From positions 1 through 41,973 of IMG/VR virus record IMGVR_UViG_3300020220_003380: a stretch of 41,973 bases of DNA. One strand, 5' to 3'. This document shows, in pieces, positions 3,905 through 37,699 of this stretch. The position numbers and the translations under genes are program-made. Under the pieces are notes generated by a model, which was given only the letters and a program-made list of their open reading frames with translations, had not been told where the DNA came from and made no database searches. Numbering within the stretch: the first letter of the stretch is position 1; each line of letters starts with the position of its first letter. Source of the stretch: a virus.

Positions 3905-4456
3905 ATGAGAGACCTTATTTCCTTAACTGAAGAAAAGAAAAAACTAGAGTTAAAAAAACTTCCTTACTCAATGACTGCATTGAGTCCGGTTAAGAGTAAA
4001 GCAACTATAGAAAATCACTACGGAAAATTAGCACGTGGATATGTTGATAGATACAACAAAGGCGAAGGTGATGCCAGCTTTAACGAGGCTGGCGCATATT
4101 TGCACAATATATACTTTCCGCAATTACGGCCACCGCGAAATGGCAACAGCCCAACCGGTGCTAGTTTGGCATTGATCAACAGACACTTTGGAAACTTTAC
4201 TGACTTCAAAAAAGATTTTGAAGCGGAAGCAATGAAACTGCAGGGCTCAAACTGGATTTACCTTAGCCGCAGCGGTCAAATCAAAACAATTCGAAATCAT
4301 GCCATACGCACAGATATAGCACTGCTGGTTGATTGGTGGGAACATGCATGGGTACTTGACTATGGTACGGATAAGAAACGTTATTTGAAAAACATATGGC
4401 GTATTATCAATTGGGAATATGTCAATAGACGAATTTATGCAGGAGACCGTGCATGA
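3905..4456 (+). CDS. Iron/manganese superoxide dismutase
   Basis: 183 residues, slightly shorter than the usual 190-210. All four metal ligands of the Fe/Mn-SOD family can be placed: H38 (TIENHYGK), H67 (AYLHNIYF), D143 and H147 (VDWWEHAW), plus Y46 as the gateway tyrosine and the [20 protein letters not shown] core. The second helix His pair of bacterial SODs (KHHQTY) is replaced by KLARGY, and H132 occupies the region of the outer-sphere Gln, as in some archaeal-type enzymes. It would dismutate superoxide in the cytoplasm. It is coupled by ATGA to the Fe-S carrier gene. Confidence 0.85.
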
Positions 4457-4779
4457 TTGATTTACAAGAAAGTGCAGTAATTAAACTTCGAGAACTCATT
4501 GCCGAAGAAGGCAATCCGGATCTTAAACTGCGTATATTTGTACAGGGTGGTGGCTGCTCAGGCATGCAGTATGGATTTACTTTTGATGAAATACAAAACG
4601 AAGATGATTTTGATCTTGAATTTGGTGGTGTAGGTCTGCTTGTGGATTCTATAAGCGCACAATATTTGCAGGGTGCCCGAATCAAATATACCGAAGATGC
4701 CATGGGTGCTAGCTTTAACATAGAAAATCCTCAAGCTCAGACCACTTGCGGTTGCGGCAGTAGTTTTTCACCCTACTAA
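4453..4779 (+). CDS. A-type iron-sulfur cluster carrier (ErpA/IscA family)
   Basis: 108 residues, the normal length. The three conserved cysteines are present: C35 in [11 protein letters not shown] and C99/C101 in the C-terminal TCGCGSSF. The [19 protein letters not shown] segment and [10 protein letters not shown] ending are closest to ErpA. Such proteins accept Fe-S clusters from the scaffold and deliver them to apo-proteins. The ATG overlaps the SOD stop codon, so the two are translationally coupled, linking Fe-S delivery with superoxide removal. Host IscU or Suf machinery would have to supply clusters; none is encoded here. Confidence 0.92.
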
Positions 4780-15478: not shown

Positions 15479-15901
15479 ATGAAATTAGAAAATCCGTTTG
15501 ATCAAAAACGAGGGTATCAATTTGGCGTCAAAATAGATGGAGAAATCAAACCCTTACGAAACAGCATTATTGTTACCGAAATGGATTTCAGTGGTAGACA
15601 ATTAGCCAGCGGTATAGTATTATTAGGAGACGATGGTAAGACAGAGGGTATTCGTCCAAGATGGGCGCGAGTATATGCTATTGGACCTGAACAACAAGAT
15701 GTTCGTGTGGGTCAGTGGGTACTTGTCGAACACGGACGTTGGAGCAGAGGTCTCAAAATAATTCAAAATGGCAAGGAAACAACTATACGTAGAGCAGATC
15801 CTGAAGCTGTTATTTTTGTAAGTGATCAAGAACCAGAAAACATAGACACTCTTTCCACAGCAGTACATGCAGAAAGAAAAACCAGAGAACAATACGAATG
15901 A
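15479..15901 (+). CDS. GroES-like co-chaperonin (gp31-type role)
   Basis: 140 residues. Residues 22-105 follow the GroES fold: PLRNSIIVTEMDFSGRQLAS, GIVLLGDDGKTEGIRPRWAR, VYAIGPEQQDVRVGQWVLVE and HGRWSRGLKI. The region between residues 38 and 56 corresponds to the mobile loop that would contact GroEL. T4 encodes gp31, a GroES substitute needed to fold the capsid protein; this is a likely counterpart, though from a different sequence branch also found in cyanophages. The C-terminal 35 residues are an acidic extension. The ATGA overlap couples it to the methyltransferase. Confidence 0.75.
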   Translation: MKLENPFDQKRGYQFGVKIDGEIKPLRNSIIVTEMDFSGRQLASGIVLLGDDGKTEGIRPRWARVYAIGPEQQDVRVGQWVLVEHGRWSRGLKIIQNGKETTIRRADPEAVIFVSDQEPENIDTLSTAVHAERKTREQYE

Positions 15902-16695
15902 ACACAGATTATCGATTAAAAGATCCAGTTGAACTTGATCTTGCACAATTCGGTGTAGAAGAGAATTGCACCTGGTATGACTTTGAGCACCCGTTACATA
16001 GGATGCCTCCTTTTGAACAAGTTTTTTCATCGTACTGGAACGATTATCATTACGGTAAATGGATCAAACCTGACATGACCTGTGTTGATATAGGTGCCCA
16101 TATAGGGGACACGGCCTTGCCAATGATGGCAGCTTGTAGAGCCACTGTGTTGGCCGTGGAACCAAATATACATATGCTTCCATTTTTACGAAAAAATTGT
16201 GATGCCAACAGTCATCTGGGAAAATTTGTTATAGCAACAGAAGCAGTAACAAATGGAGAGGCAAGAGATTTGGTGTTTGCAGATCATAACAACGCCATGA
16301 TCAATGGCGGCATCTTGGACGAAAATTGGGATGCAGGCACTGCGGCCACAGTGAAAGGTATGACTGGTAACACAATTACCATAGCAGGTTTAACTTTTGT
16401 TGAACTTTGCAAAAAATATTTGACCGATGAAGAGATATCAAAAATTGGCTTTGTGAAAATTGATACCGAAGGACATGATATTGAAATTATTCGCGGCATG
16501 CAAGATTTTTTATACGAGCACAAACCTGTGTTACTGACTGAATGGTTTTTTGGCTATAGTGCTGTTGACAGTCAAAAACTTTTTGATGCAATTAATGATG
16601 CTGGTTATGTTGCACATTATCCTGACACAATGGAGCCAGCCGATTTCAATCGCAAAAGCGAAGATTTGGTATGTATTCACAAGGACAATCTATGA
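15898..16695 (+). CDS. FkbM-family SAM-dependent methyltransferase
   Basis: 265 residues. The Rossmann SAM-binding motif is VDIGAHIGDTA (63-73) with the acidic VEPN (87-90), and the FkbM signature appears as IGFVKIDTEGHDIEIIRGMQ followed by KPVLLTEWFF. FkbM enzymes methylate hydroxyl groups of sugars or polyketides; phage copies probably modify glycans on virion or host, or occasionally nucleic acid, but no substrate can be assigned. Operon position between a co-chaperonin and a clamp loader gives no hint. It is coupled to both neighbours by overlapping codons. Confidence 0.85.
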   Translation: MNTDYRLKDPVELDLAQFGVEENCTWYDFEHPLHRMPPFEQVFSSYWNDYHYGKWIKPDMTCVDIGAHIGDTALPMMAACRATVLAVEPNIHMLPFLRKNCDANSHLGKFVIATEAVTNGEARDLVFADHNNAMINGGILDENWDAGTAATVKGMTGNTITIAGLTFVELCKKYLTDEEISKIGFVKIDTEGHDIEIIRGMQDFLYEHKPVLLTEWFFGYSAVDSQKLFDAINDAGYVAHYPDTMEPADFNRKSEDLVCIHKDNL

Positions 16696-24937: not shown

Positions 24938-27232
24938 ATGCTACAAACCAACCCAGAAATTGATTATATAGTGGCTGAAGCAACACAATTGGCCAAAGAT
25001 TTAAGTCATGAATATGTAACTCTGGAGCATGTATTTTTATCAATGATAAGGTTTAATCCTTTCAAAGAATTGTTAACAGAGTTTGGTGCCGATACTGATG
25101 GATTAGATGCAGAGCTAGAATCTTATTTGCTCCAAGCTACAAATTTGATTGTTAGTGACTTTGAGCCAAAAAAAACACACACTCTCGAACGTGTCTTTAA
25201 TCGTGCGTTTACTCAGGTTTTGTTTAGTGCAAGAAAGCATATAGAGTTAATGGATTTGTTTCTCAGCATCCATGCTGAAAACAATAGCTATGCACACTAT
25301 TTTATGGTCAAGTATGGCCTCGATCGCGCGAAATTGGTTGAGGTGTATAATAAAACTTATAAATCTGAATCAAGTAAATCCCTGGCCAGCTCAGACCGTG
25401 CAGACAAGATTTTAGAACACTACTGTGACAATCTAAACACAGCAGCCAAAGAAGGTAAAATTGATCCAGTCATTGGTCGGGCGCAAGAAACCGCAGACAT
25501 AGTAGAAATACTGGCACGTAGGAACAAAAGCAATGTACTCATGGTAGGTGATCCCGGTGTAGGTAAAACAGCAATTGCAGAAGGTCTAGCATTGTCTATT
25601 ATTTCCAAAACAGTGCCGTTATATCTACAAGGCTACACTGTGTACAATTTAGATATTGGAAGCTTGTTAGCAGGCAGCAAGTATCGTGGTGATTTTGAAG
25701 AAAAAATACAAGAAATTATCTCGGCATTGAACACAAAAGGTAATGCAATTCTCTTTATAGACGAAGCACATCAAATGCGAGGTGCCGGAGCAGGAAGTCA
25801 AAGCAGTGTAGACTTCAGTAACATGATAAAGCCTGCATTAAGCAAAGGCAAGATAAAAGTAATTGCAAGTACAACATGGGAGGAGTACACGCAAAGTTTT
25901 GAAAAAGATCGCGCACTTATGCGTAGATTTCAACGTGTGACCATCGACGAACCCAGTGCAGAAACAACAAAAGAAATTCTACTTGGTTTAAGATTTAACT
26001 TTGAAAAGTTTCATGGCGGCACAATACTAGATGAAGCCATAGACGCCGCTGTGGAATTGAGTGTTAGATATCAGACTGACAAAAAACTACCAGACAAAGC
26101 TATTGATTTGATTGATGCATGTTGCGCTAAACATCGAATCAAAAATAACACATGGACTGTAACAAGAACTGATGTTGTTACAGCTATTAGTAGAATAACA
26201 AAAATACCAATTGATCAAATTGGAGACACTGCATCAAAAAGTGTAAAGGGCATTAGCAGTTTAGAAATGCTTATAAAAGATAAATTGTATGGTCAAGATA
26301 CTGCTGTAGAAAATGTTTTAGAAAAAATTTATGTAAGTAAAGCGGGTTTAAAGTCAATCAATAAACCAATTGGTAATTTTTTATTTTTAGGACCAACTGG
26401 CACAGGAAAAACTGAACTAGCAAAATTACTATCAGAGCACCTTGGTATGAAACTGCTTAGATATGACATGAGTGAGTATCAGGAACGACACACAGTGGCC
26501 AAATTGATAGGTGCACCTCCAGGATATGTAGGGTACGACGACGGTAATCTTGGTGGAGGATTATTGATTTCTGATATTGAAAAAAATCCAAACTGTATAA
26601 TTTTAATGGATGAGATAGAAAAAGCACACCCGGATGTAAGCAATATTTTATTGCAAATGATGGACGAGGGTTCAGTCACAAGCAGCAATGGTAAAAAAGC
26701 AGATTGCAAAAATGCAATTATTATACTAACATCTAATCTTGGTGCAGCAGATAACGAAAAAAACACTATTGGATTTACCACTGCATTAGAAAAGTCAGGC
26801 GAAGATGATCGTGCGGTCAAGGACTTTTTCAAACCTGAATTTAGAAATAGACTAGATGGCATAGTAAAATTTGTCAAACTAGATCAACTCAGCATGCGTA
26901 AAATTGTTAACAAGTGTATCAATGAACTCAATGATTTACTTCTTGACAAGCAATTGCGTGTTAGATTAACCGAACAGGCTGTAGATGAACTAATCACAAC
27001 TGGCTTTGATAGCAAAATGGGCGCAAGACCGTTGCAAAGAAAAATCAATGATTTGATCAAAGTGCCTTTAAGTAAAAAAATCTTGTTTGAAAACATCATG
27101 GCAGGTAATACGGTTATAGTTGATTATTGCCAGGACAAGTTTGTATTTCAAACTGCAGACACATTAACCTTTCAACATAGAATAGACGAAAATGGATACA
27201 TCGTTCTGGAAGAACCTATCACCCAGTATTGA
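24938..27232 (+). CDS. ClpA-like AAA+ unfoldase with ClpP-docking loop
   Basis: 764 residues, near E. coli ClpA (758). An N-terminal Clp repeat region (1-140) precedes two AAA+ domains: Walker A GDPGVGKT (204-211) and GPTGTGKT (485-492), Walker B ILFIDEAH and IILMDEIE, pore loops KYRG (248-251) and GYVG (529-532), arginine-finger region FRNRLD. There is no ClpB middle domain, so it is not a disaggregase of that type. The loop IGF (611-613) matches the IGL/IGF ClpP-docking motif, so it could feed substrates to host ClpP. AATAAATATT precedes it and may be a late-type box. Confidence 0.93.
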   Translation: MLQTNPEIDYIVAEATQLAKDLSHEYVTLEHVFLSMIRFNPFKELLTEFGADTDGLDAELESYLLQATNLIVSDFEPKKTHTLERVFNRAFTQVLFSARKHIELMDLFLSIHAENNSYAHYFMVKYGLDRAKLVEVYNKTYKSESSKSLASSDRADKILEHYCDNLNTAAKEGKIDPVIGRAQETADIVEILARRNKSNVLMVGDPGVGKTAIAEGLALSIISKTVPLYLQGYTVYNLDIGSLLAGSKYRGDFEEKIQEIISALNTKGNAILFIDEAHQMRGAGAGSQSSVDFSNMIKPALSKGKIKVIASTTWEEYTQSFEKDRALMRRFQRVTIDEPSAETTKEILLGLRFNFEKFHGGTILDEAIDAAVELSVRYQTDKKLPDKAIDLIDACCAKHRIKNNTWTVTRTDVVTAISRITKIPIDQIGDTASKSVKGISSLEMLIKDKLYGQDTAVENVLEKIYVSKAGLKSINKPIGNFLFLGPTGTGKTELAKLLSEHLGMKLLRYDMSEYQERHTVAKLIGAPPGYVGYDDGNLGGGLLISDIEKNPNCIILMDEIEKAHPDVSNILLQMMDEGSVTSSNGKKADCKNAIIILTSNLGAADNEKNTIGFTTALEKSGEDDRAVKDFFKPEFRNRLDGIVKFVKLDQLSMRKIVNKCINELNDLLLDKQLRVRLTEQAVDELITTGFDSKMGARPLQRKINDLIKVPLSKKILFENIMAGNTVIVDYCQDKFVFQTADTLTFQHRIDENGYIVLEEPITQY

Positions 27233-29595: not shown

Positions 29596-30816
29596 ATGCA
29601 TATTGCTGATCTTTTTGAATCGTATGTAGCTGAAGCTGGCCCGCAATTGGTTGTACTATACCCGGGCCGATTTCAACCTTTTCACCTCGGGCACAGAGAA
29701 GTATTTCAAAGCCTACAAAACAAGTTCGGGCGCGACAGCGTCTATATTGCAACTAGCAATAAAACAGAACTTCCTAAAAGCCCTTTTAATTTTTCAGACA
29801 AAACAGTATTCATGAACGCAGCTGGAGTACCCAGTGATCGTATTGTGGAAGTAACCAATCCTTACAAATTACCAGAACAGCAATTCAATCCTGCTAATAC
29901 AATTTTTATAGCAGCAGTCGGTACTCCGGATCGAGACCGCCTGCGCCCAGACAGCGTAAAGAAAGATGGCAATCCGGGTTATTTTAAAACGTTCAAAAGC
30001 TTGGACGAATGTACAACTGCTGACAAGCACGGGTATGTAATAATTGCAGACGAGCGTCAAAAAGTTATCTCCATAAACGGACAACAGGTAGATGTCAGTC
30101 ATGGCACAGCTGCACGAGCAGCATGGAATGCAGTTAGAGACACACCTAAATTACGTAGTGAATATTTGTTACAAATGTACGGTAGAGATGATGCTGAACT
30201 TGGTAGAATACTGGATAAAATACCACAAACTGTTACTGAGGATCAGGAAGCAGAACTTACTCCGCTTCAAAAACAAACCGGCAAATTAACTTACCAATTG
30301 TACAAACAAGACAAATACAATACTGGCAAATACCCACCTGGTCAAGACAATGTGATTGGTAATCAGGCGCCTTGGGATAAACCAACAGAGAAGATGCCCG
30401 GTGACTTTAAAGGTCATGTACATGACACTGAATTAGGCAAAAGAATCAAAAGCGATCCTGCTACAGCCAGAATGGACGATCCTATGCTGAAGTGGGGCGG
30501 TGAAAATTATGGTCTGGAGTCGGAAGTTAAAAAACGCAGTCGCGATCGTTACTATGAAACTGCTGGTGTAGGTGTTATTGCAAATAAAAAACAGGCCCGC
30601 GATCCAAGATATAGTCACAGTCTGACCAATGATATAAGTCCCGGTGAAGTAAACAGACAACTTAAAAAAATGCATTTAGTCGACAGTGTAGAACAATTGA
30701 AAGAACAAATAGCCACATTGAAAGAAAAATGGAGCGCCAAATACAAACGCAGCATCAACTGCAATCGTCCTCGAGGCTTTAGCCAGCGAGCTCATTGCCA
30801 AGGTAGAAAAAAATAA
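29596..30816 (+). CDS. Nucleotidyltransferase-domain protein with capsid-targeting-like N-terminus
   Basis: 406 residues. Residues 1-13 (MHIADLFESYVAE) end in a (V/I/L)xE site like T4 capsid-targeting peptides. The catalytic domain starts at about 18 with VVLYPGRFQPFHLGHREV; HLGH (30-33) is the signature of the HIGH-type cytidylyl/adenylyltransferase superfamily (NadM, NMNAT). The usual ISGTxIR is replaced by SHGTAARAAW. The C-terminal half is linker with conserved modules and ends KWSAKYKRSINCNRPRGFSQ RAHCQGRKK. If packaged, the enzyme would enter the cell with the DNA. Its exact substrate is not known. Confidence 0.75.
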   Translation: MHIADLFESYVAEAGPQLVVLYPGRFQPFHLGHREVFQSLQNKFGRDSVYIATSNKTELPKSPFNFSDKTVFMNAAGVPSDRIVEVTNPYKLPEQQFNPANTIFIAAVGTPDRDRLRPDSVKKDGNPGYFKTFKSLDECTTADKHGYVIIADERQKVISINGQQVDVSHGTAARAAWNAVRDTPKLRSEYLLQMYGRDDAELGRILDKIPQTVTEDQEAELTPLQKQTGKLTYQLYKQDKYNTGKYPPGQDNVIGNQAPWDKPTEKMPGDFKGHVHDTELGKRIKSDPATARMDDPMLKWGGENYGLESEVKKRSRDRYYETAGVGVIANKKQARDPRYSHSLTNDISPGEVNRQLKKMHLVDSVEQLKEQIATLKEKWSAKYKRSINCNRPRGFSQRAHCQGRKK

Positions 30817-31295
30817 TGCATACTAAATTGGAGGTTGATGTTTACAGCCACTGGAGCGACAATCCCCCAATTTACAGAATTTATGTTGACAACGAAATGC
30901 TGGTCGAACGTACATTTGGATGGCCTAGCTATCAGAACTATATCACCGAACACATGTATTGTGACCTAGACACTGGTGTACATACTTTTTGTTTAGAAAA
31001 TTTAGATAATCGCAGTCGTTTTGAACTCGAACACTTTAAGGTTGACCAACAACCAGTTAACAAAAATTTGTTAAAAACAAATGGCGCACGTATTGAATGG
31101 AGATTTGTTGTAGATCATTTGTTGAATCGTCGCGAAACACACACACATAATTTGTTAATTGATCTAGCAAAGGTTTCGCGACCAACTCCGTTGGCACCAC
31201 CCGCTGAACGTCCTAGGAAGGTTGTACAAGTTAAAAATTATGATACCTATATTCCATTGGTACAAAGAGCCAGGCAGTTGAACGCCAAAAAATAA
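30816..31295 (+). CDS. Beta-rich phage protein, possible sugar-binding fold
   Basis: 159 residues. The sequence YSHWSDNPPIYRIYVDNEML, then CDLDTGVHTFCLENLDNRSR FELEHFKVDQ and ARIEWRFVVDHLLNRRE is a run of beta strands, with an overall plan similar to the protein at 29087. The C-terminus is a Pro/Lys linker (RPTPLAPPAERPRKVVQVKN). ATG overlaps the upstream stop. It lies within the block of putatively packaged proteins but has no capsid-targeting-like start itself. No function assigned. Confidence 0.55.
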   Translation: MHTKLEVDVYSHWSDNPPIYRIYVDNEMLVERTFGWPSYQNYITEHMYCDLDTGVHTFCLENLDNRSRFELEHFKVDQQPVNKNLLKTNGARIEWRFVVDHLLNRRETHTHNLLIDLAKVSRPTPLAPPAERPRKVVQVKNYDTYIPLVQRARQLNAKK

Positions 31296-31299
31296 ATAC
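31291..31299 (+). promoter_or_regulatory. Late-type promoter motif AATAAATAC
   Basis: AATAAATAC overlaps the TAA stop of the preceding gene and lies 20 nt before the ATG at 31320, with AGGA (31309-31312) between them. Same word and layout as at 2954. Confidence 0.6.
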
Positions 31300-31319
31300 T
31301 ACATTATCAGGAAACACAC

Positions 31320-32021
31320 ATGAAACCAACAGAATTTATAGTAGAAAACAGCATAATCGCTCAAGAAGCCGATGATATGCATAGAGATCACGAAGTGCAA
31401 ATGGCTAGAAGTCAGATGTATTCAGCAGCACAGGCAGCAATTGAAATACATCGTTTGCTTAGAGATGTAAGCGAAATGGAAGGCCTAGAAGGTTGGGTAC
31501 AAAGCAAACTGACTCTTGCAAGCCAGTATCTAGAAAGTGTAAGAGATTACATGAAGTACGAAGCAGTAAGTCAAGAGCCAGAAATGATGGCATTCGCTGA
31601 ATCAGCTGCTGATTACGCTCTAGACCAACTGCTGGTTGAAGATGACTACGACGATGCTGTCAAGGATTTTTTGGCCAAGGGCGGCCAAGTGCAAAAAGGT
31701 AAAACACACAAGCCAAGAAAATCAGAACGTTTAGGCGGAAGTAGACACATTGGTGGCGGTGGCGAAAAGATGAAGTCAAGCCGTACTGGCATCAGTTCTA
31801 AGCCAACAGGTAGAGCTGTGGCAGGACAAGCCAGCCTGGGTGAACAAGGCATGGCAGAAGGCCAACAACTGTCAGAGATGGCCACAGGTGGTGCCAGCAG
31901 TGCAGGTGCAGTGGCAACATCCATGTCTGGTCCTGGTCACAAACCTTCAAGTGGAGTGCCAAAGAAAATGGGCAACAGTTACAAATCTAAAAAAGTCACA
32001 GTGGGCAAAGGCATCTATTGA
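31320..32021 (+). CDS. Putative internal capsid protein with CTS-like N-terminus
   Basis: 233 residues. MKPTEFIVE at the start resembles the T4 internal-protein leader MKTYQEFIAE and ends in a (L/I)xE prohead-protease-type site. A helical module follows (SAAQAAIEIHRLLRDVSEME, then EGWVQSKLTLASQYLESVRD YMKYE), one I recognise from many phage proteins near head genes. The C-terminal half is Gly/Ser/Lys-rich (GGSRHIGGGGEKMKSSRTGI) and probably disordered and positively charged, suited to DNA contact. Packaging inside the head is inferred from the start peptide and the neighbours. Confidence 0.6.
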   Translation: MKPTEFIVENSIIAQEADDMHRDHEVQMARSQMYSAAQAAIEIHRLLRDVSEMEGLEGWVQSKLTLASQYLESVRDYMKYEAVSQEPEMMAFAESAADYALDQLLVEDDYDDAVKDFLAKGGQVQKGKTHKPRKSERLGGSRHIGGGGEKMKSSRTGISSKPTGRAVAGQASLGEQGMAEGQQLSEMATGGASSAGAVATSMSGPGHKPSSGVPKKMGNSYKSKKVTVGKGIY

Positions 32022-33322
32022 TGAGTGATTTACGAAACCTGTTGGAAAAAATGGATGCCATGACAGCAGCCGAAAAGAAACCAACAGGTCCACGATGGCC
32101 CGGATACCTAAAAGGCACAGATAATGCCAAAAAAATTCGTAACAAGATGGTAGGTGACGGTGCGGCTGAAAGTGTAGAAGAGTCAGAAAGTTTTTTAAAA
32201 GAGCTGGGTCAATTGATCAACAGCAATCCTGTCAAAAGAGATTTATTTCAAGAATGGCAAGAATACAAACTGGCAGAACAAGACTACGAAAAGCATTCTC
32301 TGGATCGAGACCCCGATGATCCAGAAAATCCACACAAATGGATTATAACCGTTCCGGGGACAAATGGTCCAGTAGTACTTGACAGGTACAGCGGTCCATG
32401 GCAAGATTGGATTGAAGACTTTACAGGCCGACCTGCACCACGAGATCCCATGGTTGATCAAATGTACGATCAACTGAAACAAAACTTTGAAAACCCTGGG
32501 CCAGCACCGAAATCCCCCCCAATACCGGTACCTGATGTTCCTACCGATCGAGATACTATTATACCTGGGCAAGATAACACTGACTATTTTAGGGGAAGAC
32601 CGGTAAAAAAAAGTTTGCCTCCTCAATATTTTCGAGGAAGAGGAGATCCTCGTATCAGCGAAAATGTGCAAGAAGACAACGATTCCGAAGAAGGCGAAAA
32701 AGTTACTGTTAGAATGAAAAGACCGGTTGGCAGTGATGCCTACGATAAAGTAAGGTTTATTCATATATACCCAGATGGCAGGGAAGAGCTAGTACCAATT
32801 GGTTCGTATTACCATGACAAATGGTATAGAACCTTCACAGGCAAAGAAACACCAATTACTCAAGAGCTAATCAAAGGTATTCAATCTCCTGTTAAACGTG
32901 GTAAAGAATTTATGCCTAAAGAACCAGACACCATACAAGACATCAAAGTACCTGGTCAAGACAAAGGTCGATATCATGCTCCATTGCCCAACTGGAAGGA
33001 AACTCCTCCTATTACAGAATATGGTGCTCCTGGATCTGGCATTGGCAACGACACAGCTAGAAATCCCGCAGAAGAATTTGCAAAAGGGCAAGAACGCAAA
33101 GCAGCCAAACAACAGATTCAAGGCCAGATAGCTCAACTGGTTGCACAACTGCAAGCAGCTCGAGCACAGTTGGCAGACCTAAATCAACAATTTCCCCAAG
33201 GTGCCAATCCTGTTGAAAAAACCATGGCCATGCAACAAATGTCAGCACAAAAAACACAAATCAAAAAGCAGATTGAAGATTTAACTGCACAAATTGCAGC
33301 ACTAAGACAACAGGCGGTTTAA
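32021..33322 (+). CDS. Putative internal capsid protein, linker-rich, with coiled-coil end
   Basis: 433 residues from ATG 32021 (TGATG overlap with the upstream stop; the in-frame TTG at 32018 is not favoured). The leader MSDLRNLLE ends in a LxE site. Modules: KKPTGPRWPGYLKGTDNAKK, a repeat of PGQDnT/PGQDKGRYHAPLP type linkers, a small domain near residue 230-280 (VTVRMKRPVGSDAYDKVRFI), and a C-terminal coiled coil (IQGQIAQLVAQLQAARAQLA, then AQKTQIKKQIEDLTAQIAAL). Most of the chain looks disordered. Role unknown, probably virion-associated. Confidence 0.55.
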   Translation: MSDLRNLLEKMDAMTAAEKKPTGPRWPGYLKGTDNAKKIRNKMVGDGAAESVEESESFLKELGQLINSNPVKRDLFQEWQEYKLAEQDYEKHSLDRDPDDPENPHKWIITVPGTNGPVVLDRYSGPWQDWIEDFTGRPAPRDPMVDQMYDQLKQNFENPGPAPKSPPIPVPDVPTDRDTIIPGQDNTDYFRGRPVKKSLPPQYFRGRGDPRISENVQEDNDSEEGEKVTVRMKRPVGSDAYDKVRFIHIYPDGREELVPIGSYYHDKWYRTFTGKETPITQELIKGIQSPVKRGKEFMPKEPDTIQDIKVPGQDKGRYHAPLPNWKETPPITEYGAPGSGIGNDTARNPAEEFAKGQERKAAKQQIQGQIAQLVAQLQAARAQLADLNQQFPQGANPVEKTMAMQQMSAQKTQIKKQIEDLTAQIAALRQQAV

Positions 33323-33326
33323 AATT

Positions 33327-34616
33327 ATGTTCGTAAACGATATATTTAGTAAAAAATTAAATGAAGGCAGTGAACCACGCTTTCTAGATGATGACTTTTA
33401 TGCCTATGATCCAGACACAAAAGAAATCAAAGATACTTGGAGCCACAAAAGTTCAGGCCGACGATTTGCTGAAAATCGTGCTAGAGAAATGGGCTGGTCT
33501 GTGGTCAGCGGTATGCGAGCTCGAAGCTTAGATCTACACTATCCAACTAAAAAGGTGGATGATCCATTAGATGAAGACTGGAAAAAGGTCAATCGTAGAG
33601 ACAAAACCCCGGGCATGAGTCGCAAGGCAGTGAAGGCCTATCGCAGAGAAAACCCCGGTAGTAAATTGCAAACAGCAGTGACCACCAAGCCCAGCAAACT
33701 AAAGAAAGGTTCCAAGAGTGCCAAGCGTCGTAAGAGTTTCTGTGCCAGAATGAGTGGTATGAAAAAATCTCGTGCCAGTGCCAAAACCAAACGCAATCCA
33801 GATAGCCCAATCAACAAGGCCTTACGCAGATGGAACTGCGAAAGCATAGAAGAAATGCGCGACTTGATCATGATTGCCGAACAGCGTATCTCTGCCATGC
33901 GTGAAGGTGGATTTGCCATTCCTGAAATTCCAAGAGCACCGCAACCAAGGCCAGAACCCAAGAACAAAACAGTAGATGAAGGATCCGTGCAAGACAAGTT
34001 ATACAAGCGTCATCAAGAACTACGCAAAAAGCGTGGGGCACCAGATCCTGAATATTTTAAAGAACTAGGTCAGTCATATGACATTGAAGACGACCAAGAG
34101 AGACATGCACGGCAGGCAGAAATTAAAAAGAAATACAAGGTAAAAGAAAGCGCAGACGGTTCGGTGAAATATAAAATTGAGCTCGATAAAGGAAAAAAAG
34201 ATTATCTCTTTGCCAAACCTGACAAGCCAGGAGAAAAAGTAACGCCTGATCCTGCGACCACAGCAGCTTTTAATAAAAACCTACATCCCTACCGTAAGGT
34301 AAAATCAGTTAAAGTTTTTGACAAGCCCAAGGAAGAAAAAACACAAATGAAGGCTGTGGTAGCTAACGAGGATTGTGAACGTTATGTTGAAGAACTAGGT
34401 CGAGCTGGATATGATATTGTCACAGAAACTGCCACACTATGTCCTGAATGTGGCCGCGTTGCTTATGCGGATCGCATGCTAGCAGAAAAACAGGATGCCT
34501 GTTATCACAAAGTAAAAAGTCGTTATAAAGTATGGCCGTCGGCATATGCGTCAGGTGCCTTGGTACGCTGCCGCAAAAAAGGTGCTGCTAATTGGGGCAA
34601 CAAAAGCAAGAAATAA
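33327..34616 (+). CDS. Putative internal capsid protein with basic and Cys-pair modules
   Basis: 429 residues. The leader MFVNDIFSKKLNE ends in a LxE site. It contains two short Cys-pair modules that also occur in other phages: KLKKGSKSAKRRKSFCARMS, then PDSPINKALRRWNC, and at the C-terminus LCPECGRVAYADRM and DACYHKVKSRYKVWPSAYAS GALVRCRKKGAANWGNKSKK. Modules are joined by charged linkers. High Lys/Arg content and Cys pairs suggest DNA binding or a metal-stabilised fold. Packaging in the head fits the leader and charge, but is inferred. AATAAATC overlaps its stop. Confidence 0.6.
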   Translation: MFVNDIFSKKLNEGSEPRFLDDDFYAYDPDTKEIKDTWSHKSSGRRFAENRAREMGWSVVSGMRARSLDLHYPTKKVDDPLDEDWKKVNRRDKTPGMSRKAVKAYRRENPGSKLQTAVTTKPSKLKKGSKSAKRRKSFCARMSGMKKSRASAKTKRNPDSPINKALRRWNCESIEEMRDLIMIAEQRISAMREGGFAIPEIPRAPQPRPEPKNKTVDEGSVQDKLYKRHQELRKKRGAPDPEYFKELGQSYDIEDDQERHARQAEIKKKYKVKESADGSVKYKIELDKGKKDYLFAKPDKPGEKVTPDPATTAAFNKNLHPYRKVKSVKVFDKPKEEKTQMKAVVANEDCERYVEELGRAGYDIVTETATLCPECGRVAYADRMLAEKQDACYHKVKSRYKVWPSAYASGALVRCRKKGAANWGNKSKK

Positions 34617-34633
34617 ATCTAAAGGAAAGTTAA

Positions 34634-35416
34634 ATGGATCCAAGATTTTTTAGACAGTATTTAGACATTCTCAGTGAGCAGTCCCAACCACCGTTGGATA
34701 TTGCTGGCACTGAGTACCGTCAAGGTGGAGTGCCACAACTGGGTATTCAACCCAATCAACAAGACATACAGAGTAGAGAGAAATTAGCAGGTACCTTGCA
34801 AACTGATAAAAGTTTAACAACAGGTGGACCGAACCAAATAACTTATACTGATCCTAGAGTAAACAGCATAGTTGGCGACATGCAACAAGATCTGAACACC
34901 GTAGAGAAAAGATTAGCACTAGCTGGTGTGGGAAGAGCACCAGAAACACAACCTACGCAAAAACCTGATTTTAGTCAGTATAAAGATGATGATGTTGCTG
35001 CATCACCAGCTCAACCAACAGCAGCACCAGCTCAACCGGCTCAACCAAAAGCAGCTGATGCTATAAATCGTGTATTAGATACACAACCAGCTCAACCAGC
35101 AGCACCTACAGCCGCAGCTAAACCAGCTCAACCAGCAACAGCACCTCAACCAGCAGCACCTACAGCCGCAGCCAAACCTCAACCACCAGCTCAACCAGCA
35201 GCACAAACAAAAACTAATAGCGGCGGAAATGTACAAGAAGACACTGTAAGAAACCAAAATAACCAACAAATGGATCCAAGATTTTTTAGACGATATTTAG
35301 ATATTTTAAGCGAACGAGTTGTAATGGGGCCAGATGGCAAACCACAGCCACGTGTGCAAGTCACAGGACCCGAGCCTACTGATGGCCAAATGGGCCAAGA
35401 TGGAGATGCCAAATGA
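34634..35416 (+). CDS. Low-complexity protein with a duplicated CTS-like peptide
   Basis: 260 residues. The leader MDPRFFRQYLDILSE (LxE site) recurs at residues 213-227 as MDPRFFRRYLDILSE, including its own methionine. Between them lies a long low-complexity stretch of Ala, Pro and Gln (PAQPTAAPAQPAQPKAADAI, then TQPAQPAAPTAAAKPAQPAT). The pattern suggests two genes or two copies of one gene fused in frame. The second leader carries no ribosome binding site of its own. AAAGGAAAG lies before ATG 34634. Probably a packaged or scaffold-like protein. Confidence 0.6.
   Translation: MDPRFFRQYLDILSEQSQPPLDIAGTEYRQGGVPQLGIQPNQQDIQSREKLAGTLQTDKSLTTGGPNQITYTDPRVNSIVGDMQQDLNTVEKRLALAGVGRAPETQPTQKPDFSQYKDDDVAASPAQPTAAPAQPAQPKAADAINRVLDTQPAQPAAPTAAAKPAQPATAPQPAAPTAAAKPQPPAQPAAQTKTNSGGNVQEDTVRNQNNQQMDPRFFRRYLDILSERVVMGPDGKPQPRVQVTGPEPTDGQMGQDGDAK
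35270..35317 (+). repeat. Second copy of the 48-bp leader sequence of the gene at 34634
   Basis: The bases 35270-35317 repeat 34634-34681, the first 21 identical and the rest with a few differences, most of them synonymous. The copies are 636 bp apart (212 codons), so the frame is preserved. The high conservation of the encoded 15 residues relative to the linker indicates selection on the peptide. Confidence 0.75.
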
Positions 35417-36381
35417 AATACAGAGAACTCCTAGAAGCCTGTTGGAAAGGCTACCACAAAGAAGGCATGAAGACCATGTTTGGTAAACGATATCCTAATT
35501 GCGTCAAAAATAAAAAAACAAACGAAGAACAAAGAATACCTAGAAAGCCAGGACAACCTGCTAATAGTAAAAAACACAGTGACTTATATACAGATGAAAA
35601 TCCAAAAGGTACCATTCAAGGATTAAAATTTGCCACTGCAGAGGATGCAAAAGCAAGTGTAAGTAAAATTCGTAATAGTGGCAAAAGTCATGCACATAAA
35701 ATACAAGCAGCGGTAGCAATGGAACAAAGAGCAAAAGCTGCAGGAAAAACTGAAGCTGCAAGTGTTTATAGAAAATTTATTAATAGTATTAAGAAAACAA
35801 ATGAAGAACAACTAGACGAAAAATGCTGGGATGGTTATCAACAACAGGGTATGAAGAAAAAAGGTTCCCGCCAGGTTCCAAACTGTGTAAAAATGTCAGA
35901 GTCCGAACTAGAAGAAGATCTCAAAAAGTGGTTTCGTGAAAAATGGGTACGGTTCGGTCCTGATGGTAAAATTAGAGGTGAGTGTGGTGGCAGAGACGGC
36001 GGCGAAGGTAAACCCAAATGCTTGCCTGCTAGCAAAGCACACAGTCTTGGTAAAAAAGGTCGTGCTAGCTCAGCAGCTAAAAAACGCAGAGAAGATCCCA
36101 ATCCAGAGCGTAGAGGGCCAGCCAAGAATGTAGCAACCAAGACTAGAGGTATGAAAGAACAAGGTATTCCGGAATTACAGCCACCACAGGATCAACAGCA
36201 AGAACCTAGTGCATTACGAAAGGGACTAGATGCGTTAGGTACGATTTTTACAGCAGGCAAATTGTTACAAGATCCCAAGGCTTTGGTACATCAAGAATTG
36301 GGCAATGTAATTGATCCCAACAGGCAAAATCAAAGCTTAATTCGCAGAATATTCCCCGGAGACAAAAATCAACAACCATAA
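35413..36381 (+). CDS. Putative internal capsid protein with repeated Cys modules
   Basis: 322 residues. The leader MKYRELLE ends in a LxE site. Two copies of a short module CWxGYxxxGMKxx...PNCVK (residues about 11-33 and 137-160) flank a small helical domain (FATAEDAKASVSKIRNSGKS HAHKIQAAVAM). Then WFREKWVRFGPDGKIRGECG and KPKCLPASKAHSLGKKGRAS, a basic module known from other phage proteins. The C-terminus is an amphipathic tail. The number of short Cys-containing modules in one chain is unusual. It overlaps the preceding stop (ATGA). Confidence 0.6.
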   Translation: MKYRELLEACWKGYHKEGMKTMFGKRYPNCVKNKKTNEEQRIPRKPGQPANSKKHSDLYTDENPKGTIQGLKFATAEDAKASVSKIRNSGKSHAHKIQAAVAMEQRAKAAGKTEAASVYRKFINSIKKTNEEQLDEKCWDGYQQQGMKKKGSRQVPNCVKMSESELEEDLKKWFREKWVRFGPDGKIRGECGGRDGGEGKPKCLPASKAHSLGKKGRASSAAKKRREDPNPERRGPAKNVATKTRGMKEQGIPELQPPQDQQQEPSALRKGLDALGTIFTAGKLLQDPKALVHQELGNVIDPNRQNQSLIRRIFPGDKNQQP

Positions 36382-36390
36382 GTCAAATCT

Positions 36391-37080
36391 ATGTCATTTC
36401 TAGTAGCTAACACACCACCTGTACACTGTTATATCAGACGAGAATTTCTCTATGATTTTGAAAAGGGACACGGCGAATATGAGCCGTGTATATGGGTATC
36501 TATCAAAAGCATAAGAGGACAAGCTTTTAGAATTGAAGCCTACTTGCCCAACTACGGAGCACTGTACGATAAATTACCACTGCATGCGTTTGTATCACGC
36601 ACAAACCTTCTTGATACTGCAAGTTTTTTAAATCTAGATACCTTGCAAATCTGGGATTGCTTTGATTATGATATGACTGTGATACAAAAAGCATTTTTAA
36701 GAAATTTAAGTTGTAAATTTTATGCCAAAGATAAAAACATGTACTCAGGCAATTACATGTTTACTGTGGATCATGCTCATCCTAATCACAACATCATAGA
36801 CACTGGATACAGTGAATGGCCAGAAGACCATAAGAGTTTTAATTTCATAGAACTAGACAGCGGTCAATATGCAGCACAACCAAACAATAGATGCTTGTTT
36901 TTTGATGCTGCCAGCAACCCACGCGACATGAAGTTTCCAGATTTTAAAGTATGCACTAAAAAATATGTAGTAGAACAAAATCCCAAATGGCGTTTGGGCG
37001 ACACAGACACCGTAATGTATGAAAAAAGTTCCGATACGGTTAACGACGAACATTACGGTAAAAGCAAACTGTTTAAATAA
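36391..37080 (+). CDS. Conserved phage protein of unknown function
   Basis: 229 residues. The sequence (VANTPPVHCYIRREFLYDFE, then HGEYEPCIWVSIKSIRGQAF, LQIWDCFDYDMTVIQKAFLR, NIIDTGYSEWPEDHKSFNFI ELDSGQYAAQPNNR) is a large conserved family in uncultured T4-like phages, with no characterised member I know. Beta-rich with no catalytic motif. It is not led by a capsid-targeting-like peptide, so it may be an accessory or virion surface protein. Confidence 0.7.
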   Translation: MSFLVANTPPVHCYIRREFLYDFEKGHGEYEPCIWVSIKSIRGQAFRIEAYLPNYGALYDKLPLHAFVSRTNLLDTASFLNLDTLQIWDCFDYDMTVIQKAFLRNLSCKFYAKDKNMYSGNYMFTVDHAHPNHNIIDTGYSEWPEDHKSFNFIELDSGQYAAQPNNRCLFFDAASNPRDMKFPDFKVCTKKYVVEQNPKWRLGDTDTVMYEKSSDTVNDEHYGKSKLFK

Positions 37081-37264: not shown

Positions 37265-37699
37265 ATGGACGCATTAAAACAAGCTCTTAAAATAGCATTT
37301 GCCAGTGAGTATGCTTTTTACCTCAAAGCACACTATTTTCATTGGAATGTGGAAGGGCCTAATTTTCCACAATATCACGAATTGTTTGCGAAAATTTATG
37401 AAGAAGTGTACAGCAGCATTGACAAATTTGCTGAAGAAATAAGAGCGACTGGTTCATATACTCCAGGTTCTTTTGAGCGTTTTAGTGTACTCAGTTTGGT
37501 TGATGACGAAACTAATATTCTGCCTGCGGAGTCCATGCTACTAGAATTATTACAAGACAGCGACAAGATGCAAGAAATGTTTCGAATCGTGTTTCAAGCT
37601 GCTGAAGAATTAGGACAACATGGCCTAAGTGATTTTCTAGCAAGCAGACAAGATGCCCATGCAAAACATTCATGGATGTTGAGATCTACTCTTAAATAA
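37265..37699 (+). CDS. Dps-family mini-ferritin
   Basis: 144 residues. The ferroxidase residues of Dps are present at the correct spacings: H26 (HYFHWNVEGPNF), H38, D53 and E57 (SSIDKFAEEIRATG), corresponding to H51, H63, D78 and E82 of E. coli Dps. The Lys-rich N-terminal tail that E. coli Dps uses to bind DNA is absent. The dodecamer would oxidise Fe(II) with peroxide and store iron. With the SOD and the Fe-S carrier it makes a set of iron and oxidative stress functions. A GATAAATAC motif lies just upstream, suggesting late expression. Confidence 0.85.
   Translation: MDALKQALKIAFASEYAFYLKAHYFHWNVEGPNFPQYHELFAKIYEEVYSSIDKFAEEIRATGSYTPGSFERFSVLSLVDDETNILPAESMLLELLQDSDKMQEMFRIVFQAAEELGQHGLSDFLASRQDAHAKHSWMLRSTLK

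Follow-up and report, generated by a model that had tools for sequence, protein, structure and literature searches.

The window analysed here is the whole of IMG/VR virus record IMGVR_UViG_3300020220_003380 (41,973 bases), in which a block of seven neighbouring genes at positions 29596-36381 probably encodes the head cargo of a T4-like phage, with capsid-targeting leaders cut by the prohead protease gp21 and with polyprotein cargo. The block most likely belongs to the known capsid-targeting system of phage T4, and a possible polyprotein organisation is its new part. In T4, proteins reach the core by way of their leaders, gp21 cleaves them behind (L/I)xE, and the mature cargo is ejected together with the DNA; an Asp at position 10 blocks the processing of IPIII (PMC9026906). 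The window, a partial T4-like phage contig without the head cluster, contains tail genes, a clamp loader and a family-B DNA polymerase that the end of the contig truncates. The comparison set comprised 34 related viral loci.

Leaders and the proteins that carry them

The initial annotation, made from the sequence of the window, had reported six leaders ending in hydrophobic-x-Glu (hxE) and none on the neighbour at 30816, which was confirmed here in the N-termini and in all reading frames of the block. Six of the seven proteins begin with such a leader of 8-15 residues, as do 8 of the 48 genes elsewhere in the window. The criterion, an hxE ending at residue 8-17, was widened from the published (L/I)xE, and since it is satisfied by about 21% of background genes (182/866), a single case carries little weight. 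Among non-redundant relatives of the Cys-module proteins, the leader was present in 74 of 109 (Fisher p 2e-22 against background), and a stricter pattern in 31 of 109 compared with 10 of 866 (p 2e-23), p values that are optimistic because the relatives share ancestry. Chance as the sole cause of the leaders was rejected on the enrichment of 74/109 over 182/866. The features of the block, all on the plus strand, are listed below, with proteins named by their first position and a slash marking each predicted cut.

29596-29634: leader MHIADLFESYVAE, predicted cut E13/A14, immediately ahead of the first beta strand in the nucleotidyltransferase fold (N-terminus)
29596-30816: enzyme like nicotinamide mononucleotide adenylyltransferase (NMNAT) or cytidylyltransferase, with GRFQPFHLGH motif and C-terminal two-Cys module (PF01467, phrog_395)
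30730-30798: two-Cys module WSAKYKRSINC...C behind LKE/K, C-terminus of the 29596 enzyme
30816-31295: neighbour without leader, N-terminus MHTKLEVDVYSHW (reading frame)
31320-32021: leader MKPTEFIVE/N and cargo (relatives keep the leader: MKTTEFIVE, MKTKDFINE, MKPTDFITE)
32021-33322: leader MSDLRNLLE/K and cargo with variable middle (N-terminus, relatives)
33327-34616: leader MFVNDIFSKKLNE/G and candidate polyprotein (PF19846, E 1.4e-10; phrog_727, E 9e-50)
33575, 33905 and 33980: candidate internal sites of the 33327 protein, LDE/DWKKVNR, MRE/GGFAIPEIPR and VDE/GSVQDKL
34148 and 34487: further candidate internal sites of the same protein, VKE/SADGSVKY and LAE/KQDACYHKVKSRY
34634-35416: leader MDPRFFRQYLDILSE/Q and proline/alanine-rich cargo (N-terminus)
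35270-35314: second, near-identical internal leader copy MDPRFFRRYLDILSE/R in the 34634 protein, residues 213-227
35413-36381: leader MKYRELLE/A immediately before a CWKGY module (N-terminus)
35820: second CWDGY module of the 35413 protein, behind LDE/K
35916: LKKWFxxKWVR module of the 35413 protein, behind LEE/D

The earlier description of the set as basic, Cys-module proteins stood only in part. It fits the 29596, 33327 and 35413 proteins, the only ones that are basic and contain Cys modules (mature isoelectric point, pI, 9.4-9.9), and does not fit the 31320, 32021 and 34634 proteins, which lack Cys and have a neutral or acidic pI (5.1-6.7).

Relatives retain the leaders while the protein bodies differ. 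In the 33327 family, the leaders MFINDLFKITE/, MFVNDLFENKKITE/, MFINDIFKKKLNE/ and MFLEDFYNKKNTPE/ precede differing first modules, and elsewhere a leader directly abuts one of various modules (MRASEIITE/KCWKGY, MRASEFITE/KWSTKYK, MRAEEFMNE/NLRKWFKEKW, MIVNDLFE/SSQQCPECGG). The 51-residue gp122 of cyanophage Bellamy consists of a single leader and a single module, MKSFKQFQE/SWSNKYKKSIDC. In one relative (L025), the sequence of the internal leader copy MDPRFFRRYLDILSE is found close to the beginning of a separate frame. Likewise, T4 IPI, IPII, IPIII and Alt, a diverse set of proteins, have N-terminal leaders of 10-19 residues that end in (L/I)xE, and the IPIII leader MKTYQEFIAE/A is close to MKPTEFIVE of the window and to MKKFSAFLSE of cyanophages. 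As a side observation, the N-terminus MKTHEFASISKKNRGIKE at 15594-16007 of locus L017 resembles the longer T4 IPI leader MKTFKEFTSTTTPVSTITE.

Sequence comparison places the 29596 protein among the NMNAT/cytidylyltransferase-like nucleotidyltransferases. It matches PF01467 (E 8.7e-6; 26.4 bits against a curated cut-off of 21) and phrog_395, contains the HxGH motif within GRFQPFHLGH, and in a profile search of the PDB retrieved NMN adenylyltransferase (E 0.001). Residues M1, L6, F7, E8, Y10 and E13 of its leader are invariant in 17 relatives, and an enzyme of this type in L018, a record near-identical to the largest related one (G007, 221 kb), shows 73% identity over the domain. The full-length predicted structure was discarded (predicted local distance difference test, pLDDT, 55). 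The model of the excised domain (pLDDT 74) placed the first strand at residues 5-10 and gave weak fold matches to nicotinate-nucleotide adenylyltransferase and FAD synthetase (E 0.008, template modelling score 0.4). The enzyme fold would stay intact, since cleavage is predicted immediately ahead of the first strand.

Head genes and virion proteins of relatives

Record G007 carries the same gene block together with a complete head cluster of T4 type (gp20, gp67-like, gp68-like, gp21, gp22 and gp23). A gp21-type protease, whose lack had been named beforehand in the initial annotation as fatal to its reading, was found there (PF03420, E 3e-27), with the catalytic motifs retained: His in GEVDHP (conserved motif GE[LV]xHP) and Ser in GVSSRG. 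The gp23 of this record contains a candidate T4-like site, SLQE/TATAG. Together with the leader enrichment and the virion-detected relatives described below, this gp21 supports the T4-like capsid targeting and packaging proposed at the outset.

Published virion proteomics bears on the block of this uncultivated phage through relatives in cultured cyanophages, among which leader-bearing cytidylyltransferases, a S-adenosylmethionine (SAM) hydrolase, a kinase and two Cys-module proteins were detected. Mass spectrometry of S-SM1 virions detected gp21 and the cytidyltransferase T4-GC190 (PMC3037559), which starts MKKFSAFLNE/A. In S-CREM2, detected proteins include the cytidylyltransferase gp154, the SAM hydrolase gp6, the kinase gp14, and gp13, gp136, gp160 and gp137 (PMC10665884); gp160 and gp137 share modules with the 33327 and 35413 proteins of the window. 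Leaders are present on gp154 (MKNFSSFLTE/A), gp6 (MKDFDSFLE/E), gp14 (MKRFDAFLTE/E), gp13 (MKDLHSFLTE/Q) and gp136 (MQTFSMFFSE/D), and a six-frame scan of S-CREM2 with a T4-style leader pattern returned exactly these five, all virion-detected. Since this pattern was drawn post hoc, after the leaders had been seen, a separate ranking was made on similarity to the T4 IPIII leader alone, which placed the same five within the top 8 of 219 proteins (p 7e-4). Over all virion-detected non-structural S-CREM2 proteins, the comparison with undetected ones on similarity to the T4 leader was not significant (Mann-Whitney p 0.35), because most of the former have no leader and many are encoded among the tail genes; the ranking is informative only at its top.

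The cytidylyltransferase/NMNAT proteins (T4-GC190) of S-SM1, S-CREM2, S-SZBM1 and S-SCSM1 belong to a related nucleotidyltransferase superfamily and are virion-detected (PMC3037559, PMC10665884, PMC9146016, PMC9602691). The window enzyme differs from them in its extra two-Cys module, and the sequence similarity is distant. The leader check covered S-SM1, S-CREM2 and S-SZBM1, and all three virion-detected cytidylyltransferases carry a leader, that of S-SZBM1 being MRFRQFIIE/A. With five more cyanophage cytidylyltransferases (MKKFSAFLKE/A, MKKFSAFLSE/A, MKSFSQFLTE/T, MKKFSDFLSE/A, MKGFSNFLIE/A) the count is 8/8; that of the jumbo phage RaK2 has no leader and begins directly at the enzyme. The authors of the S-CREM2 and S-SCSM1 studies left open whether such enzymes are packaged or carried over after caesium chloride purification, and doubt had been expressed about the leader-bearing SAM hydrolase and kinase as virion components; the leader on the virion-detected enzymes favours packaging. 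The leader goes unreported in the passages available from the four papers, and a literature search found no cyanophage paper on capsid-targeting leaders.

Two further observations were made in these phages. The Cas9-like nuclease gp12 of S-CREM2 (L199, 7704-10313, minus strand), virion-detected, contains LRFASFMAE/A at residues 17-25; this stretch starts with a CTG codon, which points to an internal leader or else to a misannotated start. S-SZBM1_194, a 707-residue hypothetical protein (L204, 28253-30376, minus strand), contains an internal TYREFIAE/G, almost exactly the core of the T4 IPIII leader. It occupies the gp16-gp17 position, where other cyanophages have a module protein.

Candidate internal sites between modules

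The initial annotation had overlooked that further hxE sites within the proteins mark the boundaries of modules. In the 816-residue protein of relative L002, for example, they lie between modules as GVAE/GSS, GVAE/GSE, GVAE/GIS, PLDE/AGP, DVSE/GKE and GVSE/ASV. The share of distinct contexts with an hxE ending 0-4 residues upstream of a module anchor was determined over all fetched sequences. It was 49/56 for CWxGY (13.8 expected by shuffling), 47/52 for CYxKVKSRY (8.2), 50/53 for LKKWFxxKWV (17.4), 26/27 for WSxKYK (9.3), 15/16 for VQDKL (2.3), 15/16 for GPFSYG (2.9) and 17/17 for four smaller modules together. For ten of the 13 modules tested, an hxE closely preceded the module in 88-100% of distinct contexts, a share that partly reflects inheritance, as the contexts share ancestry. 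Furthermore, leader and internal site replace each other before the same module: KITE/GSVQDKL and TVDE/GSVQDKL, KLNE/GGFDIPEIPR and AMRE/GGFAIPEIPR, ELLE/ACWDGY and QLDE/KCWDGY.

Breakpoints were taken as the N-side ends of local alignments between shuffled proteins and compared with random places. The hxE tripeptide was found at 496 of 1120 breakpoints compared with 243 at random (z 17.6, 2.04-fold), any E was enriched 1.35-fold and polar-x-E only 1.19-fold, and hxD (0.80), hxK (0.79), hxQ (0.77) and hxS (0.73) were depleted. All proteins of each genome were also ranked blind by excess of [LIV]xE[GAS]. In G007, gp22 (11 against 2.1 expected) and gp21 (5 against 1.0), both expected T4-type substrates, came out on top; in G003 (6 against 2.0) and G006 (7 against 1.7) the top was a 33327-family protein, and in G001 the 33327-type protein was not among the top.

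Alternatives, neighbouring genes and significance

In the proposed course of events, each leader would draw its protein into the prohead core, where gp21 would cleave after the Glu of hydrophobic-x-Glu; by acting on the same kind of site before each module, it would also split a single precursor into small two-Cys modules, most of them basic. The mature NMNAT-like enzyme and the modules would stay alongside the DNA and pass into the host cell when it is infected. Packaging into the head is supported by homology. Cleavage at leader and internal sites is what the site pattern suggests, injection would follow by analogy with T4, and the cargo would presumably function in the host, where it is tempting to think that a putatively injected NMNAT-like enzyme keeps nicotinamide adenine dinucleotide levels up early in infection. 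Several points weigh against this account. A published neo-N-terminus for these proteins was not found in the literature; the small leader-bearing proteins S-SZBM1_191 and _192, and also S-SZBM1_194, are absent from the 30 virion proteins listed for that phage; and a direct search for gp21 found neither protease nor head genes in the window or in contigs G001, G003 and G006, an absence that is uninformative because the whole head cluster (gp20, gp22, gp23) is missing too. Three of the 13 modules did not show the upstream hxE (0/7, 1/3 and 1/3 contexts). Nor can every hxE be a cut site, as several of them fall within folded regions. The per-protein shuffle test, when limited to the window, gave no significant excess of internal sites for the 33327 protein (3 against 0.9, p 0.08), and the claim of internal sites therefore rests on relatives.

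It is possible, though rather unlikely, that gp21 removes only the leaders and that the internal hxE are uncut linker motifs, so that multi-module proteins are packaged whole. The linkers are Glu-rich, as reflected in the breakpoint values for any E and polar-x-E, recombination at conserved linkers would likewise shuffle modules there, and known T4 cargo cuts lie near protein ends; however, the excess is specific to hydrophobic P3 with Glu P1, and a given module can begin behind either a leader or an internal site. An improbable alternative is that these are core or scaffold components resembling gp67, gp68 and gp22, degraded and lost from the head rather than delivered. While gp22 is equally dense in hxE sites and small basic fragments could stay DNA-bound as structural fillers, the predicted cut would leave one enzyme domain intact, G007 has separate gp22, gp67-like and gp68-like genes, and the cyanophage relatives persist in mature virions. 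Least probable of all is an N-terminal similarity without any role in targeting, arising from chance and inheritance within a small number of protein families: the background frequency of hxE near the start and the non-independence of relatives would fit it, but proteins with unrelated bodies (enzyme, Cys modules, other cargo) share the leader, which persists as these bodies change and marks unrelated virion proteins in S-CREM2.

Compared with known systems, leader-directed head cargo in this block differs from T4 in its contiguous arrangement, in having an NMNAT-like enzyme and two-Cys modules as cargo, and in candidate sites between modules, the T4 cuts being terminal. In phiKZ and SPN3US, a large set of head proteins is cut after x-x-E by the prohead protease and ejected (PMC5694885); there, in contrast, the propeptides are mostly >100 residues and the specificity is A/S-x-E. 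Polyvalent proteins of phages and conjugative elements are multidomain effectors, proposed to be packaged and proteolytically released, and are described as scarce in cyanobacteria (PMC5512222). They use embedded peptidase domains, whereas the modules here are of other families and the candidate releaser, gp21, would act in trans; Pfam and PHROGs scans detected no embedded peptidase or other polyvalent-protein domain.

Other genes of the window were also noted. An Fe/Mn superoxide dismutase (PF02777, PF00081; 3905-4456) has an extra N-terminus, and its counterparts in G001 and G006 start MRELIDLTE/D and MRELIELTE/D; it is possibly a seventh leader-bearing cargo, outside the block. Together with the adjoining Fe-S biosynthesis gene (IscA/ErpA-type, 4453-4779) and a ferritin/Dps-like gene after the block (37265-37699), it forms an iron and oxidative-stress set. 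Directly after the block, 36391-37080 strongly matches phrog_3704 (annotated ferredoxin, E 5e-89). A 764-residue protein at 24938-27232, upstream of the block in relatives too, reads like a ClpA-type AAA+ unfoldase.

A broader proposal, for which the evidence appears evenly balanced, is that T4-like aquatic phages encode cargo polyproteins in which interchangeable basic two-Cys modules share one leader, are cut in the prohead, delivered as a mixture and swapped exactly at protease sites. If the internal sites are cut, many products would arise per leader, and no such description was found for T4. Our results bear on a question from cyanophage proteomics, namely whether the virion NMNAT-like enzyme, SAM hydrolase, kinase and Cas9-like nuclease are cargo or carry-over. 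They also assign a likely location to the widespread phrog_727 and DUF6321 families and the CWxGY and CYxKVKSRY modules, and provide a sequence-based rule for recognising those "hypothetical" proteins that T4-like aquatic phages carry in their heads.

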